Shown one piece after another: positions 13,969-22,487 of a stretch of DNA of 64,000 nt. The notes under the pieces were generated by a model that was not told the origin of the DNA, searched no databases, and saw only the letters and a program-made list of their open reading frames with translations. Position 1 is the stretch's first letter; the number at the start of each line of letters is the position of its first letter. The translations under genes were made by a program, and so were the position numbers. The stretch comes from a candidate division LCP-89 bacterium B3_LCP (GTDB lineage Bacteria; Electryoneota; B3-LCP), in assembly GCA_005223185.1 (NCBI GenBank), contig NJBN01000001.1:496001-560000 (forward strand), given 5' to 3'.

Positions 13969-14523
13969 CTATGTTTCCTGCGCTAACAATTTCTGGGCTT
14001 CTTCATAGCCTGTTCGCAACGCTTTAAGATTCAGTTCTTCTGTACCTTTGGGAGCTTTCTGAAGAAGCGCTTTTTCGATAGCTTCCTTGCTGACGACTTG
14101 AGTCAATTCGATCATAATTCCCAGAGAAAGTACGGAAGACATGATCATCTTGCCAACTTTGGTTTTAGTTATTTCAATAACCGGAACCTGGTAGGTTTTA
14201 TACTTTTCATCCCATTTGGTTACCAACACAGGGTCAATAACTACTATGGCATCATCCCGCAAATCGTACAGGAAGGCGTCATACGATCCTTGCGCCAGCG
14301 AAAGAAAAAAATTGATAGCAGTAGTTTTGGGATACATGACGGGTTCGTCATCGATGATGACGTCAATTTTGGTTGGACCTCCACGCACCTGGGCGGTATA
14401 GGTTGGGCTCTGAAGGGAATAACGTCCTTCAAATTTTTGCGCAGCCAAACCAAGTATATCCCCTGCCAGAAGTACTCCCTGCCCGCCTACTGCGGAAAAA
14501 CGGGCTTCATAACGATTGCTCAT
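13969..14523 (-). CDS. korC: 2-oxoacid:acceptor oxidoreductase gamma subunit
   Basis: 184 residues. The N-terminal AVGGQGVLLAGDILG is the hallmark of the gamma/catalytic subunit family of 2-oxoacid:ferredoxin oxidoreductases, followed by SPTYTAQVRGGPTKIDVIIDD. It completes the four-part enzyme with the alpha, beta and delta subunits encoded just upstream. The complex oxidatively decarboxylates a 2-oxoacid with CoA and reduces ferredoxin. With sucCD in the same block, 2-oxoglutarate is the likeliest substrate; this is inference from context. Confidence 0.9.
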   Translation of the reverse strand: MSNRYEARFSAVGGQGVLLAGDILGLAAQKFEGRYSLQSPTYTAQVRGGPTKIDVIIDDEPVMYPKTTAINFFLSLAQGSYDAFLYDLRDDAIVVIDPVLVTKWDEKYKTYQVPVIEITKTKVGKMIMSSVLSLGIMIELTQVVSKEAIEKALLQKAPKGTEELNLKALRTGYEEAQKLLAQET

Positions 14524-14531
14524 TTCAGCAC

Positions 14532-15374
14532 CTATGCTTTTAAAGCGGCCTTAGCTTGTACTCGTTCGATTAATTTAGCGTATTCGTCGGTATATTCGGC
14601 AAGTTCAGTGTTGTGGTACATCTCCCCGGTAATGATTTTCCCCTCTAACTCTTCCGGGGACATTTTCGCTGCTTTTTTATTGCTGACGACCTGATCACTG
14701 ATCCAGTCTATCATGGTGATGGCATCAGCCATTTTATTGCGCCGTCCATATTGTGTGTGGCAATTGGACAGAATTTCAATAACAGAAAATCCGTGATGTT
14801 CCATCCCATCTTTGAAATACTTCTCCATCATGCGGGCGTTGTCCACCGCGCCTCTGGCGACATAAGTTGCACCGGCACCCTTAGCTAACTCCACCAAGTC
14901 AAATGCCGGGTCTATATTGCCATGTGGAGTGGTGGCGGCTCGAGCTCCGTAGGGAGTTGTCGGACTGAATTGACCGCCAGTCATACCATAGATATTGTTA
15001 TTGTTGATGATCAAAGTGATATCTATATTGCGCCGGCAAGCGTGAATGAAGTGATTGCCGCCGATGGCAGTTGCATCTCCATCGCCGGAAATGACGATTA
15101 TATGCTTGTCTGGGGCAGCCATCTTCACACCCGTGGCAAAGGAGAGAGCTCTGCCATGAGTGGTATGGAGAGTATTCATATCCATGTATCCGGGCGCTCG
15201 TGAAGTGCAGCCAATCCCGGAAATTACGGCGATATCGTTCTTATCCCATCCAAGTGAATCTATCGCACCTATCATAGATTTGACGACAATACCGATCCCG
15301 CAGCCCGGGCACCACATGTGGGGGAGTTTTTCCGCCCTCAAGTAATATAAGTAATCAACAGCAGCTTTAGGCAT
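14532..15374 (-). CDS. korB: 2-oxoacid:ferredoxin oxidoreductase beta subunit (TPP-binding)
   Basis: 280 residues starting MPKAAVDYLYYLRAEKLPH. I place the start at 15374, where GGAGG precedes the ATG, rather than at an in-frame upstream codon that would overlap korA by about 120 bases. With this start it overlaps the korA stop by 8 bases. The Cys pair in MWCPGCGIG and the thiamine diphosphate motif GDGDATAIGGNHFIHACRRN with NNNIYGMTGGQ are complete. It binds TPP and an Fe-S cluster and carries out decarboxylation. Confidence 0.93.
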   Translation of the reverse strand: MPKAAVDYLYYLRAEKLPHMWCPGCGIGIVVKSMIGAIDSLGWDKNDIAVISGIGCTSRAPGYMDMNTLHTTHGRALSFATGVKMAAPDKHIIVISGDGDATAIGGNHFIHACRRNIDITLIINNNNIYGMTGGQFSPTTPYGARAATTPHGNIDPAFDLVELAKGAGATYVARGAVDNARMMEKYFKDGMEHHGFSVIEILSNCHTQYGRRNKMADAITMIDWISDQVVSNKKAAKMSPEELEGKIITGEMYHNTELAEYTDEYAKLIERVQAKAALKA

Positions 15375-16527
15375 GTTGTAGTACCTCCTTAATTTTTTCC
15401 AGGATTTCATACGGTGGCACCGGAACGCCGCCAACCTTGTTAACTCCGACAATGGGCATTTCCTTATGCACGGAACGTTCCACTTCAAGGATCATCTGTC
15501 CCAGGTTCATTTCGGGGACAACAAAAGCTTTCACCCTTTGCCCCAATTCATGGATGACCTTCTCAGGGAAGGGCCACAGCGTAATGGCACGGAACAATCC
15601 CACTTTAAGTCCTTCCTGGCGGGCTTTTTCGACAGCCATCTTCGCTCCGCGAGCGGTGGATCCGAATGCAAACACAGCGACTTCAGCGTCTTCCAACATA
15701 TACTCATCGTATTCGGTCAAAGTGTCCACATCCTTCATCACCTTCTGAATCATTCTCACTTCGTCGTTATGACATATATCCGGAACGGTGGTGGGGAAAC
15801 CGTTGGCGCCGTGATTCAACCCGGTGACATGAAAACGGTAGCCTTCGAAATAGTTAGCCATGGGAGGCACGTCACCGTATTGCGTGTCGTAGGGATTGTA
15901 CTCTTCCGGCGGGACAGAGGGCTTTACACGGTCAATTATTTCATATTCTGAAGGGTCGGGAATGATCATACCTTCACTCATGTGCCCCAGTACTTCATCA
16001 ATGAGGATTATTACGGGCACGCGGTATTTTTCAGAAATATTGAATGCTTTGATGGTGTCTAAGTATATTTCCCGGTGGAAGGCAGGAGCCAGCGCTATGG
16101 TGGGATGATCTCCGTGTGTGCCCCATTTTGCCTGCATGACGTCCGCTTGTGCCGGCGCCGTGGGCAAACCAGTGGACGGTCCACCGCGCATGACATTTAC
16201 AATTACACAGGGGACTTCCGCTATACAAGCATAACCTAAATGCTCTAATTTCAGCGAAAATCCTGGACCCGAAGTAGCAGTTAAGGACTTCTTTCCAACC
16301 AGGGAAGCGCCTATCACAGTGCCCATAGCTGCAATTTCATCTTCCATCTGTATGAAGGTTCCTCCAACTTCAGGAAGCAATTCTGCCATGACGGCAGCGA
16401 TCTCAGACGAGGGAGTAATAGGGTATCCCCCATAGAATCTGCAGCCCGCTGCAATGGCAGCGCGTGCCACAACTTCATTTCCCTGCCAAAAAACTATATC
16501 AGATTTTTCCGAGGAAGCAGATGACAT
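15367..16527 (-). CDS. korA: 2-oxoacid:ferredoxin oxidoreductase alpha subunit
   Basis: 386 residues. The pyruvate/2-oxoglutarate ferredoxin oxidoreductase alpha fold shows GCRFYGGYPITPSSEIAAVMAE, TATSGPGFSLKLEHLGYA and MRGGPSTGLPTAPAQADVMQA. The C-terminal half has the transketolase C-like domain (AVFAFGSTARGAKMAVEKAR). It follows korD by about 65 bases and overlaps korB. Close kin are VorB/KorA; the sucC/sucD neighbourhood favours 2-oxoglutarate, but branched-chain 2-oxoacids remain possible. Confidence 0.92.
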   Translation of the reverse strand: MSSASSEKSDIVFWQGNEVVARAAIAAGCRFYGGYPITPSSEIAAVMAELLPEVGGTFIQMEDEIAAMGTVIGASLVGKKSLTATSGPGFSLKLEHLGYACIAEVPCVIVNVMRGGPSTGLPTAPAQADVMQAKWGTHGDHPTIALAPAFHREIYLDTIKAFNISEKYRVPVIILIDEVLGHMSEGMIIPDPSEYEIIDRVKPSVPPEEYNPYDTQYGDVPPMANYFEGYRFHVTGLNHGANGFPTTVPDICHNDEVRMIQKVMKDVDTLTEYDEYMLEDAEVAVFAFGSTARGAKMAVEKARQEGLKVGLFRAITLWPFPEKVIHELGQRVKAFVVPEMNLGQMILEVERSVHKEMPIVGVNKVGGVPVPPYEILEKIKEVLQHA

Positions 16528-16591
16528 CTTTAACCTCTGGTATGGTAGTTTATCGAATTAATTTAACAAGTACTTACTACTGAAAACCGCA

Positions 16592-16891
16592 TTATTGTTC
16601 GGCCGCAGTTTTCTTGGTATCGCCGAATTGTATCTTGCCCACCTCATCCTTGCGTAGAATGCGTATGCCGAAATCGGGACATTGCAATTCGCACAGTTTA
16701 CAGAAAGTGCAATCGTCAGCATTCACCACGTCAACCACAGCTCCTTCCCATTTATCCGGGGCGTCCACCAGTGCCAGGCATTCAGGCTTACAAACCTTGA
16801 TGCAGATGTCACACCCTTTACAGAGATTGCGGTCAATCAGGATGACGACGTCTTTTTTCTTGGAATCGTAACGTAAAATATTTTCGCTCAT
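16592..16891 (-). CDS. korD: 2-oxoacid:ferredoxin oxidoreductase delta subunit (2x[4Fe-4S])
   Basis: 99 residues. Two ferredoxin cluster motifs are complete: CKGCDICIKVCKPECL and CTFCKLCELQCPDFGI. This subunit carries electrons from the TPP site to external ferredoxin. It starts 11 bases after sucD and precedes korA, so ligase and oxidoreductase are almost certainly cotranscribed. The N-terminus has a short basic stretch (YDSKKKDV) before the first cluster. Confidence 0.93.
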   Translation of the reverse strand: MSENILRYDSKKKDVVILIDRNLCKGCDICIKVCKPECLALVDAPDKWEGAVVDVVNADDCTFCKLCELQCPDFGIRILRKDEVGKIQFGDTKKTAAEQ

Positions 16892-16902
16892 TTTAGACCT
16901 CG

Positions 16903-17772
16903 TTATGCCAGAATCTCTTTCATCTTGTTGCCGATTTCCGCAGGTGACTGACAGACGTGAATCCCGGCCGCTTGCAGAGCAACCATTTTTTCTGAGGCTG
17001 TCCCTTTTCCACCAGCTATAATCGCGCCTGCATGTCCCATACGTCTCCCCGGGGGTGCAGTTTGTCCCGCAATGAATGCTACTACAGGTTTCTTAAATTC
17101 AGCCTTTACATAGTCAGCAGCATTCTCTTCAGCGGTTCCTCCAATTTCGCCAATTACGACCACCCCGTCAGTATTCTGATCTTCATTGAACAGCTTAAGC
17201 AGATCGGTGAAGGTTGACCCTATCACCGGATCGCCCCCGATACCGATACAGGTGGACTGTCCCAGACCCTGCGCAGAAAGCTGACCGACAGCTTCATAAG
17301 TGAGGGTGCCGGATCTTGATATTACGCCGATGCGTCCTTCCTGATGAATGAAACCCGGCATGATACCTACCTTGCACTGTCCGGGGGTAATAACGCCCGG
17401 GCAGTTGGGCCCCACCAATCGGGTTTTCGTCTTCTGGAGATAGTGGTACGCAGTCAACATATCCTTGGTGGGGATGCCTTCCGTGATGCATACCACCAGA
17501 TCTAAACCTGCATTGGCGGATTCCATGATGGCATCCGCGGCGAATGGCGGCGGCACGAAAATAACTGAAACGTTGGCGCCTTCCTCTTTCACTGCATCAG
17601 CTACGGTATTGAAGACCGGTTTGTCCAGATGTTTCTGACCGCCTTTACCGGGTGTTACACCGCCAACCAGATTGGTGCCATACGCAATCATCTGTTCAGC
17701 ATGGAAAGTGCCTTCACTGCCGGTGAAACCCTGTACGATGACGCGGGATGATTTATTGACTAAAATGCTCAT
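16903..17772 (-). CDS. sucD: succinate-CoA ligase alpha subunit
   Basis: 289 residues, full length. The CoA-binding Rossmann part ([22 protein letters not shown]) and the phospho-His loop ([22 protein letters not shown]) are present. It makes ATP (or GTP) from succinyl-CoA. Its ATG directly follows the stop of the STAS-like gene (TAAATG), so it is translationally coupled to a regulatory gene, not to sucC as is usual. Downstream korD begins 11 bases later. Confidence 0.96.
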
Positions 17773-18087
17773 TTATGCAGATACTTCCTTTCGCGCAAGA
17801 CGCAATTTTGCCAGATGGACAATCAAATGTTCATCACAAGGATCTATATTTATGAATTTTAGACGCCGTTTTACTTCTTCTTTGGGAAATTCGTTAAATA
17901 ACTTCGCAATTTCATCAAATAATGAGCCAGAAGCTACGGTCTCGTTCTCAAAATCGAGCTCAACGATCTCATAATGGCTCCATTGGAATACAATCACATC
18001 ATTGATTATGCTACCGATTTCGCGTAATGACCCGGGTTGGTTCAACCACTCTTTGAATATCAATGTAATTTTCGTTCCTGGTACCAT
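17773..18087 (-). CDS. STAS-like (DUF4325-type) protein
   Basis: 104 residues. The segment VELDFENETVASGSLFDEIAKLF resembles DUF4325/STAS-like proteins (beta strand, then a helix with the F-D-E pattern), and KFINIDPCDEHLIVHLAKLR fits the second half. DUF4325 proteins are often encoded next to an ATP-binding protein, as here: its ATG follows the ATPase stop directly (TAGATG), and its own stop abuts the sucD start. No enzyme motif is seen. I infer a partner-switching type regulator, by analogy with anti-sigma/anti-anti-sigma pairs; its target is unknown. Confidence 0.65.
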   Translation of the reverse strand: MVPGTKITLIFKEWLNQPGSLREIGSIINDVIVFQWSHYEIVELDFENETVASGSLFDEIAKLFNEFPKEEVKRRLKFINIDPCDEHLIVHLAKLRLARKEVSA

Positions 18088-18968
18088 CTAAAGTTCTTCC
18101 CAATCTGAAGTACTAAGATAGTAAAAATCTCTGCGAGTCTTTATAGATAGATTTACCATTGTTCCGGGGAAAGCTATATCCAACAAAGTCTTTTTGATAT
18201 CCTTTGAAATATCCATTTTCGCCTTCCCTGATAGTATCGTTAATGAAGCCTCATTCTTTTCTGCTACATCGCGGAGCAAATACAGACCAATGCCTCTTTC
18301 GTCTGATTTACTGGAAACTCCGTATTCTGCAGCTTTATCAACAGCGTCAATATCATTTCTTAGATCAGGATATCTTTGACTTGTTATCATGGATTCGGGA
18401 ATTCCTATTCCTGTATCCAGAATACAGAGCCTCACTATCTGCTTACTCGGAACTGAGTAGGCACACATATAACAGTGGTCTGTCTGTCCATGTTCAAAGG
18501 AGTTTTCAATAACTTCACGAATTGCGAAATGCACTGCCTTATGAAAGTTCTCAACCCCTCGGAGTTTCTCCGTTAAAATTTGGGTTACTTGCCCAGCCAG
18601 AGGATAACTCGGTTCAGCAAGTCTGGTCACAGGAAAAGATAAAAACCACTTTGGCAATTTATGTGAAACTTCTGGATTCAAGTATTTCTCAATCCCCAGA
18701 CCAAGAAACTGATTTTTAGCATTACTGTGCAGTTTAGGTGGAATTATTTCGCATATCTTACCTCTCTCAGCAAGTCCATCCCATAAAGCCGCGAACCAAC
18801 AGGCAGTAAAGGGACTAATCCACCAGACCTTCGAAGCATCTATTACAATTTTTTTCTCAGTGCACTTTAAGCTTCTACGAAGATTCTTGTTAGAACAGGA
18901 GCTCGTGAAATCTTTAAGTCTGCTGGCAGAACGATATGTCCGGGACTTAAGAAGTACTTATCCTTCAT
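18088..18968 (-). CDS. GHKL ATPase with N-terminal STAS-like domain, apparent frameshift
   Basis: The ATP-binding half (from 18681) shows the N box REVIENSFEHG, the G1 box LDTGIGIPES and the G2 box DERGIGLYLLRDVAE: a histidine-kinase-like ATPase without kinase parts. The same frame stays open upstream to 18957 without ATG, GTG or TTG and contains KKIVIDASKVWWISPF, a STAS-like domain. A second frame starts with ATG at 18968, overlapping the sucC stop (ATGA), and runs MKDKYFLSPGHIVLPADLK to a stop at 18867. One missing T near 18870 would join them as VEALKC, giving an intact protein of 293 residues. So the gene has either decayed or suffers a sequencing indel. Confidence 0.7.
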
Positions 18969-20170
18969 TGCACTGCCACAGTTACCTTCTTCGCCGCATC
19001 CTGGAAATCGGAAGCTACCAGGAAGTTCAAACCTGACGCTTTGAGGATTTCCCCGGCTTCCTTGTGATTGGTGCCTGCCAGACGAATTATTACCGGAACC
19101 TTCAAACCACCTAATGCTTCTACCGCTTCCACAACGCCTTCAGCCACACGGTCACAACGGACAATGCCGCCGAATATATTTATCAGGATTGCTTTGACGT
19201 TGGGATCCGTGAGGATGATGCGGAATCCGTTTCTTACAGTTTCGGCTGAAGCAGCGCCGCCCACATCTAAAAAGTTTGCCGGTTCGCCACCGGCTAACTT
19301 GATCAAGTCCATAGTAGCCATTGCCAGACCGGCTCCGTTGACCATACAACCCACGTTTCCGTCAAGTTTGATGTAGTTCAGGTTGTACTTGGATGCCTCG
19401 ATCTCGGCTGGTTCTTCCTCTTCCAGATCCCGGTATTCCATTATGTCCGCATGTCTGAAGAGGGCATTATCGTCGAAATTGATTTTGGCGTCCAGGGCAA
19501 TGACGTCGCCCTCTTTGGTGATCACCAAGGGATTGATTTCAGCTAAGGAAGCGTCAGTATCACGATACGCCTGGTAAAGTTTCAGGAAAAACTTGACTGC
19601 GCTTTTCTGCTGCTGACCTGCTAATCCTAAGGCGAATGCCAGTTGGGATGCCTGGAATGGACGCAGTCCGGTTCCAGGATCAATGCGTACCTTGACGATT
19701 TTTTCGGGCGTTTCAGCCGCGACTTTCTCGATTTCAACGCCGCCTTCTGTAGAGACCATGAAAACGTCCATGGCGCATTCTCTATCCAGAACGATACCAG
19801 CATAAAATTCTCGATCTATATTGCAGCCTTTTTCGATCAGAATACGCCGAACACGCCTTCCCTGCTCGCCTGTTTGGTGTGTGATCAAAAGGTTGCCAAA
19901 AATATTCCTGGTGAACTCGCGTACCTCGGTTTCATCCCTGGCAATTTTTACCCCGCCTTCCATAATCAGCTGGGTTGTATCATCGGGATTGTAGAGGTTA
20001 CCTTTGCCGCGCCCACCTGCATGGATTTGGGATTTAACCGCGCAAACACCTCCTCCGAGACCTTTGTAAGCCTGAACAGCTTCGTCATCGGAAAACGCTA
20101 CTCTTCCCTCAGGAACGGGTACACCATACTTTCGTAAAACCTGCTTTCCCTGGTATTCGTGAATTTTCAT
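18965..20170 (-). CDS. sucC: succinate-CoA ligase (ADP-forming) beta subunit
   Basis: 401 residues. The ATP-grasp start MKIHEYQGKQVLRKYGVPVPEG, the grasp-loop GGRGKGNLYN and the C-terminal CoA-ligase segment (FLDVGGAASAETVRNGF, NIFGGIVRCDRVAEGV) are all present. With SucD it forms the TCA-cycle succinyl-CoA ligase. The stop overlaps the start of the ATPase gene by 4 bases. The next gene upstream, arcC, ends 48 bases before it, so it may belong to a longer transcript or have its own weak promoter. Confidence 0.96.
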   Translation of the reverse strand: MKIHEYQGKQVLRKYGVPVPEGRVAFSDDEAVQAYKGLGGGVCAVKSQIHAGGRGKGNLYNPDDTTQLIMEGGVKIARDETEVREFTRNIFGNLLITHQTGEQGRRVRRILIEKGCNIDREFYAGIVLDRECAMDVFMVSTEGGVEIEKVAAETPEKIVKVRIDPGTGLRPFQASQLAFALGLAGQQQKSAVKFFLKLYQAYRDTDASLAEINPLVITKEGDVIALDAKINFDDNALFRHADIMEYRDLEEEEPAEIEASKYNLNYIKLDGNVGCMVNGAGLAMATMDLIKLAGGEPANFLDVGGAASAETVRNGFRIILTDPNVKAILINIFGGIVRCDRVAEGVVEAVEALGGLKVPVIIRLAGTNHKEAGEILKASGLNFLVASDFQDAAKKVTVAVQ

Positions 20171-20218: not shown

Positions 20219-21163
20219 CTAATCCTTGTATATCCAAGTGCCTGATTCTTCATAGACTGCGCTCAAGACGTTCTCGACAGAAGAGACCAGGGCGCGCTTG
20301 CCTCCAGCTTCTAGGAACTGTATAGAGGCTTCGATCTTCGGTCCCATATTGCCCGGCGGGAAATGTCCTTCTTCCAGATATTTTCTTGCTTCTGAAATGT
20401 TCAACCTGTCAAGTGCTACCTGTTCAGGAGTTCCGAAGTTCAGACAGACTTTATCCACCTCGGTAAGCATGAACAGTTCATCAGCACCGACGTCATTCGC
20501 CAGAACGGCAGCAGCTCGATCTTTATCTATTACCGCGTCTATTCCTTCCTGGAAGTTATTCTTCATGACAAAAACGGGTATGCCTCCTCCGCCGGCAGCA
20601 ACTACCACGTAACCTTCTTTCAGAAGAAGGCGGATGACGTCTTTGTTCAGAATACTCAGAGGAATAGGTGATCCCACTACCCTTCGGAAGCCTCTTCCCT
20701 TATCCTCTTTGATTATCCAGTTATGTTCTCTGGCTAACTCTTCAGCAACTTCCTTTGAAAACGCTCTGCCTATGTATTTCGTTGGATTGGATAGTTCAGG
20801 ATCATCTCGATCCACAACAACCTGAGTTACCAGGGTGGCAACCGGCTTCTCTATGTCCCTCCACTTCAATCCATTTTGGAGGGATTGTTCTATCATGTAA
20901 CCGATACCGCCCTGTGTGTCGGCTACCAAAACGCCCAATGGCCTGGGAAAGGAAATATCGAGCGAATGTTCCATACGGAGCAGCGCTTCACCGACTTGTG
21001 GACCGTTACCATGCGTGATGACAATCTCATATCCTTTGTGGATAAGCTCGATGATACCAGCCATGGACTTACGCGTTTGCGTGAACTGTTTTGCAATGGT
21101 ATTATCACCGGTCGGGGACGAAATGGCATTTCCCCCTAAAGCCACGATAGCCGTGTTGTTCAT
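20219..21163 (-). CDS. arcC: carbamate kinase
   Basis: 314 residues, typical. Carbamate kinase makes ATP from carbamoyl phosphate and ADP. Family segments are AIVALGGNAI, THGNGPQVGEALLRMEHS, and VVAAGGGGIPVF, with the C-terminal MGPKIEASIQFLEAGGKRALV. No arginine deiminase or ornithine carbamoyltransferase is next to it. Instead it abuts a cyclic-2,3-diphosphoglycerate synthetase-like gene (1-base gap), a pairing that recurs in anaerobes and may relate to nitrogen compound degradation; this last point is inference. Confidence 0.95.
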   Translation of the reverse strand: MNNTAIVALGGNAISSPTGDNTIAKQFTQTRKSMAGIIELIHKGYEIVITHGNGPQVGEALLRMEHSLDISFPRPLGVLVADTQGGIGYMIEQSLQNGLKWRDIEKPVATLVTQVVVDRDDPELSNPTKYIGRAFSKEVAEELAREHNWIIKEDKGRGFRRVVGSPIPLSILNKDVIRLLLKEGYVVVAAGGGGIPVFVMKNNFQEGIDAVIDKDRAAAVLANDVGADELFMLTEVDKVCLNFGTPEQVALDRLNISEARKYLEEGHFPPGNMGPKIEASIQFLEAGGKRALVSSVENVLSAVYEESGTWIYKD

Positions 21164-21164
21164 A

Positions 21165-22487
21165 TCATCTATCCGCCAGGAAGCGCTTTAGCACATCTTC
21201 CAAGTTAGGATGACCGATTTCCTGCAGATCGTAAGTTACCCTCACTGAGGGTTTATCGATTCTCATGATGCGGCGAAGATCAATGGGAGTACCGATGATG
21301 ACGACTTCGCAGTCTGTGGCGGCGATGGTTGCCTCTAAATCTCTGATCTGCTGTTCACCGTATCCCATCGCTGGAAGTAAGGGACCGATGTCAGGATATT
21401 TAGTAAAGGTATCAGTGATAGTTCCAACAGTCCAGGGACGAGGATCGACCACTTCCGTAGCGCCGAATTTTTCTGCCGCAACGATTCCGGCGCCATAAGC
21501 CATTTCTCCGTGGGTCAGCGTCGGACCATCCTCAATCACAAGAGCTTTCTTGCCCAGTATCAGTGCGGGGTCTTCAACTGCAATGGGGCTGGCTGCTTCT
21601 ATAATAACGGCTTTAGGATTATTATCTCTGATAGATATACGCAGATCAGTAACGTCATCCGGATCGGCTGAATCCAACTTATTGATTACGATCACGTCAG
21701 ACATCAACAAGTTGGTTTCACCAGGATGATAAGCTACTTCGTGTCCTGGTCTTAAAGGATCAGCTACCGTGATATGCAGATCGGGTTTGTAGAATGGTAG
21801 ATCGTTGTTGCCGCCATCCCATAGGATGATATCCGCCTCTTCCTCAGCCTGACGCAAGATAGCTTCGTAATCAACGCCGGCATATATTACGTTGCCGCGC
21901 ACGATGTGCGGCTCGTATTCTTCCATTTCTTCAATGGTGCAGTCATAACGTTTCAGATCATCCACTGAGGCAAAGCGCTGTACCCGCTGGGCGACCAGAT
22001 CGCCATAAGGCATGGGGTGGCGTACAGCCGCGACTTTTAAACCCCCTGCCTGTAGGATTTCGCTTACTCTGCGTGTGGTCTGGCTTTTTCCGCAGCCGGT
22101 ACGAACCGCACACACAGCCACAACCGGCTTGGTTGATTTTACCATGGTAGCCTCACCGCCAAGCATAACGAAGTTGGCGCCGCTGGCGATCACGTGGGAA
22201 GCTACGTGCATGACATATTCATGTGGAACGTCTGAATAGGAGAAAACCACATCATCAACTTTGTGATCTTTAATTAAGCTGGGTAGATCTTCTTCAGCGT
22301 GTATGGGAATACCACCTGAGTATAATTTACCCGCTAATTCCGCGGGGTATTTTCTCCCTTCTATATCTGGAATTTGAGTGGCAGTGAAGGCGACAACCTC
22401 AAAATCTTCGTTATCGCGATAGACGAGATTAAAATTATGAAAATCCCGACCTGCAGCACCCATGATAATTATTCGTCTTCTAGTCAT
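21165..22487 (-). CDS. cyclic 2,3-diphosphoglycerate synthetase-like GTPase
   Basis: 440 residues. The N-terminal RRIIIMGAAGRDFHNFN is a Rossmann-like start, and the P-loop VCAVRTGCGKSQTTRR (near residue 130) is followed by ILWDGGNNDLPFY and VIVINKLDSADP, a GTPase-type N-K-x-D. This matches proteins named cyclic 2,3-diphosphoglycerate synthetase after a methanogen enzyme; bacterial members have no proven function. The Shine-Dalgarno is GAGG, about 7 bases before the ATG. Its immediate coupling with carbamate kinase suggests a shared pathway. Confidence 0.75.
   Translation of the reverse strand: MTRRRIIIMGAAGRDFHNFNLVYRDNEDFEVVAFTATQIPDIEGRKYPAELAGKLYSGGIPIHAEEDLPSLIKDHKVDDVVFSYSDVPHEYVMHVASHVIASGANFVMLGGEATMVKSTKPVVAVCAVRTGCGKSQTTRRVSEILQAGGLKVAAVRHPMPYGDLVAQRVQRFASVDDLKRYDCTIEEMEEYEPHIVRGNVIYAGVDYEAILRQAEEEADIILWDGGNNDLPFYKPDLHITVADPLRPGHEVAYHPGETNLLMSDVIVINKLDSADPDDVTDLRISIRDNNPKAVIIEAASPIAVEDPALILGKKALVIEDGPTLTHGEMAYGAGIVAAEKFGATEVVDPRPWTVGTITDTFTKYPDIGPLLPAMGYGEQQIRDLEATIAATDCEVVIIGTPIDLRRIMRIDKPSVRVTYDLQEIGHPNLEDVLKRFLADR

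Follow-up and report, generated by a model that had tools for sequence, protein, structure and literature searches.

A probable kinase–STAS partner switch of the CapKS/VapKS kind between sucC and sucD in Electryoneota, with succinyl-CoA synthetase as a candidate client

Organization of the sucC–sucD locus

According to the open reading frames and Pfam matches, the window (the whole stretch of 64,000 nucleotides analysed) carries on its minus strand, in this order, sucC, a frame for a kinase with STAS and GHKL domains, a gene for a DUF4325 protein, and sucD. The features are, from upstream to downstream:

20219..22487, minus strand: upstream genes of the same run, carbamate-kinase-like and GTPase-like (ORF reading; the order upstream of sucC is the same in loci L045 and L047)
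18965..20170, minus strand: sucC, succinyl-CoA synthetase beta subunit, 401 aa (Pfam ATP-grasp_2, 248.8 bits; Ligase_CoA, 108.4 bits)
18867..18968, minus strand: 33-codon frame from the ATG of the ATGA overlap, out-of-frame start of the kinase STAS domain (sequence; resembles the first residues of the intact L045 kinase)
18088..18957, minus strand: frame of the STAS+GHKL (CapK/VapK-like) kinase, with no in-frame start before 18681, frameshifted near 18867 (HATPase_c, 27.8 bits; phrog_3364, 1.6e-32; intact relatives)
18235..18534, minus strand: GHKL ATPase/kinase domain, residues 142–241 of the kinase frame (HATPase_c match range; N-box, DxGxG, and RGxGL kept)
17773..18087, minus strand: DUF4325 STAS-like (VapS-like) protein, 104 aa, presumed kinase substrate (PF14213, 28.9 bits; profile match to VapS 9z7o, 8.5e-15)
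16903..17772, minus strand: sucD, succinyl-CoA synthetase alpha subunit, 289 aa (Pfam CoA_binding, 101.7 bits; Ligase_CoA, 91.6 bits)
13969..16891, minus strand: downstream genes of the same run, ferredoxin-like and 2-oxoacid:ferredoxin oxidoreductase-like (ORF reading; the order next to sucD is the same in loci L045, L046, and L047)

Two of the gene junctions are as the sequence-only reading described them: the TAG of the kinase frame ends at 18088 and the ATG of the DUF4325 gene begins at the next base, and the ATG of sucD directly follows the TAA of the DUF4325 gene. The same reading had sucC overlapping the ATPase gene in an ATGA, which needs correction. The ATG at 18968–18966 opens only a frame of 33 codons (18867–18968, ending in TAA) and not the ATPase frame, which is open from 18088 to 18957 and contains no ATG, GTG, or TTG until a TTG at 18681. 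Internal promoters and terminators were predicted at the locus in numbers close to those in shuffled sequences, and these predictions are uninformative.

The kinase frameshift in the window genome

In the same family, the metagenome-assembled genome G004 from Lake Pavin sediment (locus L003/L045; contig JAPKYS010000013.1) encodes one intact kinase of 294 aa, which starts at exactly the same ATGA overlap. The 33 codons of the window resemble the start of this intact kinase, so the window kinase carries a one-base frameshift in its STAS part. By comparison with L045, roughly a dozen further operon genes of the window genome are intact. The frameshift could be a mutation or an assembly error, and the sequence is compatible with both; the kinase of the window genome is probably impaired, or mis-assembled, through a one-base shift in the STAS domain. 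The kinase of a second genome (G018, L069:150-620) is also frameshifted, at a different place, near the linker between the STAS and GHKL domains. Programmed frameshifting was considered and rejected: the window shift has no slippery heptamer, and the shift in G018 lies elsewhere.

Folds and conserved residues of the two proteins

Two systems that pair a STAS-GHKL kinase with a STAS protein, VapKSC and CapK/CapS, were described in June 2026 (Chambers et al., EMBO J 2026, PMC13373217; VapS structure 9Z7O). In these systems, the kinase acts on a conserved serine of the STAS protein, which leads to release of the VapC toxin or, for CapS, of DNA; phosphorylation of CapS by CapK was shown, and that by VapK is an inference from mutants (PMC13373217). 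A VapS phosphomimic at S48 no longer holds VapC, the Ser/Thr of the S48 column is absolutely conserved, and the C-terminal region of VapS (residues 94–116) is needed for blocking VapC (PMC13373217). The CapK and VapK relatives respond to single-stranded DNA or DNA damage and control immune operons or the VapC toxin (PMC13373217).

A profile of the kinase matched SpoIIAB, and only SpoIIAB, in the PDB. The structure of the kinase was predicted for an intact relative, with a mean pLDDT of 65, so that the details of the model are unreliable. Structural alignment of this model revealed (i) a STAS fold at residues 3–100, with a Z-score of 12.4 to an anti-sigma antagonist, and (ii) a SpoIIAB-like domain at residues 111–281, with a Z-score of 10.6 to SpoIIAB. 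The sucCD-linked kinases retain the N-box Asn as well as the DxGxG and RGxGL motifs. The column presumed to correspond to the aromatic VapK F54/CapK W68 has W in the window and N, L, D, Y, K, L, and M in the relatives, in an uncertain register, the sequence alignment having been made without the published VapK and CapK sequences. This aromatic, which presumably stacks on single-stranded DNA, is not kept across the sucCD group, and the input signal may therefore differ. A PADLOC search gave a sole, weak match, to DrmA, on the GHKL region, which we took as fold similarity.

The DUF4325 protein consists of a single STAS-like domain of about 100 residues. It matches PF14213 with 28.9 bits (29.1 bits in the genome search) against a curated cut-off of 23, and its profile matches VapS (PDB 9z7o_A) at 8.5e-15, compared with 0.015 for the window sequence alone. 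A Foldseek search with the predicted model returned weak matches only, several of which are STAS proteins; VapS 9z7o was not among them, which is uninformative because the structure may be too recent for that library. The column of VapS S48 is Ser or Thr in none of the 11 sucCD-linked proteins, which have Gly, Ala, Ile, or Val there instead. A serine stands one residue before this column in 10 of the 11 and one residue after it in all 11; in the L045 protein, these two serines are S54 and S56. The same flanking-serine pattern occurs in the moxR-linked DUF4325 proteins and in two acyl-CoA-synthetase-linked ones (described below). Among the PIN-linked proteins, the S48 column is Ser or Thr in 7 of 7. 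The PIN-linked proteins also carry the C-terminal tail of VapS (residues 94–116), most of which the 104-residue window protein lacks.

The sequence-only reading had called the two genes a partner-switch-like pair, and this description is borne out by the SpoIIAB-like GHKL and STAS folds and by the homology of the DUF4325 protein to VapS. Similar folds would also be found in a classical anti-sigma switch of the RsbW/RsbV type, in which the kinase would hold a sigma factor from another locus, with the DUF4325 protein as antagonist. We regard such a switch as very unlikely: ORF reading of the window and of loci L045–L047 revealed no sigma factor gene in or near the operon, the kinase has a STAS domain of its own as in CapK and VapK, and the DUF4325 partner is closer to VapS than to SpoIIAA. 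Given the observed domain content, homology, folds, conserved active-site motifs, and conserved position, we assign the pair with high confidence to the kinase–STAS modules of the CapKS/VapKS kind. By analogy with these modules, the two proteins are likely to act as kinase and substrate.

Distribution of the arrangement

The order sucC–kinase–DUF4325–sucD is present in 11 of 39 Electryoneota genomes, which belong to four families. Seven genomes have the full order on a single contig (G000, which is the window genome, G004, G018, G024, G025, G027, and G029), and in four others it was traced up to contig ends (G011, G019, G022, and G030). The arrangement is thus not unique to this contig, and its recurrence in 11 genomes rules out chance or a contig artefact; nor does the pair lie at random loci within the phylum, where it is recurrently nested between sucC and sucD. 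Named relatives retrieved by the kinase search were Ca. Hatepunaea meridiana and AABM5.125.24 (Candidatus Electryoneota, AABM5-125-24), and a narrower profile scan of contigs returned three named loci. The pair is followed by sucD, and not by a PIN nuclease gene, in the window and at every other sucCD-linked locus where the contig includes the downstream flank. Another 17 genomes of the phylum have sucC and sucD immediately next to each other.

The 16 DUF4325 matches in the phylum comprise 11 that adjoin sucD, 4 that lie between moxR and DUF58, and 1 with a PIN gene downstream; 15 of the 16 are therefore located in just two operon seams, sucC–sucD and moxR–DUF58. The moxR–DUF58 seam carries the same kind of pair at loci L014, L013, L017, and L127 (G013, G037, G029, and G017, respectively), all of one family; at least 14 further Electryoneota genomes have moxR immediately next to DUF58.

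Several genomes have variants of these loci. In G023 (L122:3320-4240), the sucC–sucD seam holds a DUF4325 gene but no kinase gene, the place of which, before DUF4325, is taken by a small membrane-type ORF. In G005 (L073:683-1458), a member of the window's family, the seam is occupied by an ORF that reads as SAM-methyltransferase-like instead of the pair. G025, which has the sucCD-linked pair, has in addition a vapKSC-like locus of kinase, DUF4325, and PIN genes (L018:1093-2888). All six genomes of the window's family encode a second, lower-scoring SucD-like paralogue (G000:C14:59696-60544 in the window genome).

Outside the phylum, 20 of 347 genomes gave 24 DUF4325 matches, and neither sucC nor sucD is next to any of them. 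In G158 (L121:3905-8694) and G396 (L112), which represent two species of the same genus in another phylum, a related pair is enclosed by an acyl-CoA-synthetase-like gene and a gene like that of 2-amino-3-ketobutyrate CoA ligase (KBL-like). This pair is spaced by hundreds of bases and is not nested, a weaker setting than that in sucCD. No relative was confirmed in the viral contigs searched, and phages gave two weak kinase matches. Plasmids gave one VapKS-type match followed by a PIN gene, on a Deinococcus gobiensis plasmid; their other matches were weak and kinase-only. The PIN-linked relatives, namely loci L018, L102, L103, and L108 (PIN by Pfam) and the D. gobiensis plasmid (PIN by annotation), are evidently VapKSC-type systems.

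Evolution of the pair

In the kinase tree, the sucCD-linked kinases form one clade (support 95/96) apart from the moxR-linked and PIN-linked kinases, and the association with sucCD therefore probably arose once. On the SucD tree, at least nine changes between presence and absence of the pair are counted within the phylum. The SucD proteins of G024 and G027, two genomes of the same genus, are 89% identical and their kinases 35%; a single clade of these two kinases was rejected (p 3e-5), as was one of the family f2 kinases (p 0.014). By these comparisons, the history of the kinase disagrees with that of SucD; long branches make single nodes uncertain. The sucC and sucD genes on either side of the pair track the species. 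A search for recombination end points in sucC and sucD revealed no drop in identity near the seam, and a search for carrier-specific SucD residues revealed none beyond shuffles within families.

The pattern, as read from the sequences, is that of an accessory cassette that is acquired, lost, and exchanged at one fixed address, nearer to defence and stress modules than to a settled housekeeping regulator. The module also looks dispensable, since G023 has no kinase and the kinases of G000 and G018 are frameshifted. These same defects weaken the earlier suggestion that the pair is made in fixed ratio with succinyl-CoA ligase.

Such decay could be expected of the remnant of a VapKSC toxin–antitoxin system that has lost VapC and persists without function. 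The homology to VapS, the existence of full PIN-linked loci, also in G025 of the same phylum, and the frameshifts in two kinases are compatible with a remnant. By contrast, the sucCD-linked proteins form a clade separate from the PIN-linked ones and have their own serine pattern, and the catalytic motifs are kept at 25–35% identity across four families, which would be unexpected for a remnant; we thus consider this explanation very unlikely.

A stronger competitor holds that the pair serves as an accessory switch in stress or defence and acts on a client elsewhere in the cell. The seam would then do no more than ensure that the pair is expressed steadily and strongly without needing its own promoter, and SucCD would be left untouched. 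The mosaic presence, the swapping of divergent versions at the same address, the kinase decay, the second address at moxR–DUF58, the unrelated ORF in the seam of G005, and the SucD proteins without carrier-specific residues all agree with a hitch-hiking switch of this kind. Such a switch would, however, be expected in many operons, yet all but one of the 16 DUF4325 matches in the phylum are confined to two seams, each flanked by genes whose products are partners, and the sucCD-linked kinases are one clade. We give this explanation an appreciable chance, one that falls well short of probable.

Proposed function and its significance

The reading that we prefer is a partner switch of the CapKS/VapKS kind, co-translated with SucCD, in which SucCD is named only as the likeliest client; as a whole, we hold this statement to be evenly balanced between right and wrong. 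The kinase, with its N-terminal STAS and SpoIIAB-like GHKL domains, would be paired with the DUF4325 protein as its substrate and output. By homology, a stress ligand most likely switches the kinase on, and the active kinase would phosphorylate the DUF4325 protein on a serine at the N-terminal end of helix 2, thereby changing what that protein binds. The pair would be a swappable cassette lodged in the sucC–sucD seam and translated in line with both subunits. From its position, SucCD might take the place held by VapC in vapKSC, so that stress would alter the assembly or activity of succinyl-CoA synthetase. The sensing or control of energy status suggested by the sequence-only reading would be a conjectural role, the nearest described relatives responding to single-stranded DNA or DNA damage.

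That SucCD is the client is a tentative proposal drawn from gene position. In its favour, the pair prefers two seams, both of them flanked by partner genes; against it stand the lack of any carrier-specific SucD residue and the methyltransferase-like ORF in the G005 seam. Against the preferred reading more generally stand the S48 column, which is never Ser or Thr (0/11), the presumed DNA-stacking aromatic, which is not conserved in an alignment of uncertain register, and the decay (G000 and G018) and loss (G023) of the kinase. A bolder version, in which a stress-sensing kinase–STAS switch directly controls SucCD (and MoxR–DUF58 in sister lineages) from the seam between subunit genes, so that a phage-defence module has become a controller of core metabolism and the seam is a fixed address for its swappable versions, seems to us rather unlikely.

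CapKS and VapKSC are known to switch immune operons and a toxin, respectively. Were the sucCD-linked form to act on SucCD, a central metabolic enzyme would join these targets, and a stress or phage alarm would have a new kind of output, the shutdown of succinyl-CoA and ATP formation. Should SucCD not be the client, it would still be unusual for a fast-evolving cassette to come, go, and be exchanged at precisely the same seam of a core operon. Its recurrence at the moxR–DUF58 seam suggests a testable rule, that the client be sought in the genes on either side, and offers a lead to the function of DUF4325 proteins, most of which are without one. The arrangement in the uncultured phylum Electryoneota also hints at unrecognised control of core metabolism.

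Comparison with known systems

As in other sucCD operons, sucC and sucD are complete and lie in a conserved run with oxoacid:ferredoxin oxidoreductase-like genes; unlike in those operons, two regulatory genes split the subunit genes, which are neighbours in the 17 genomes mentioned above. The pair shares with SpoIIAB/SpoIIAA and RsbW/RsbV a GHKL kinase fold and a STAS partner fold, and differs from them in the N-terminal STAS domain of the kinase. Its likeness to CapKS is a STAS+GHKL kinase that phosphorylates a STAS protein and controls the adjacent operon, a feature that is putative here. By contrast, both the N-terminal HTH of CapK and the C-terminal winged HTH of CapS, which serves repression, are absent, and the neighbours are metabolic instead of immune genes.

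The system resembles VapKSC in that (i) a STAS-GHKL kinase gene is directly followed by a small STAS-like (DUF4325) gene in a tight operon; (ii) the kinase has STAS and GHKL domains, seen in the intact relative, the STAS part being frameshifted in the window; and (iii) the adjacent STAS protein is homologous to VapS at the profile level. It differs in that (i) there is no VapC/PIN gene, and sucC and sucD flank the pair; and (ii) the substrate lacks most of the toxin-blocking C-terminal tail, and its serines flank the S48 column. The open-access full-text literature yielded no description of the sucCD-nested arrangement, which is weak evidence of absence. The sequence-only reading had proposed an undescribed regulatory system. 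This was too strong, the kinase–STAS pair itself being already known as CapKS/VapKS (2026); the sucCD and moxR–DUF58 setting and the serine-shifted, tail-less, and toxin-less form are absent from that description. With its missing PIN gene, short tail, and shifted serine, the sucCD version would work like VapKSC, but we do not count it as a member of that system.
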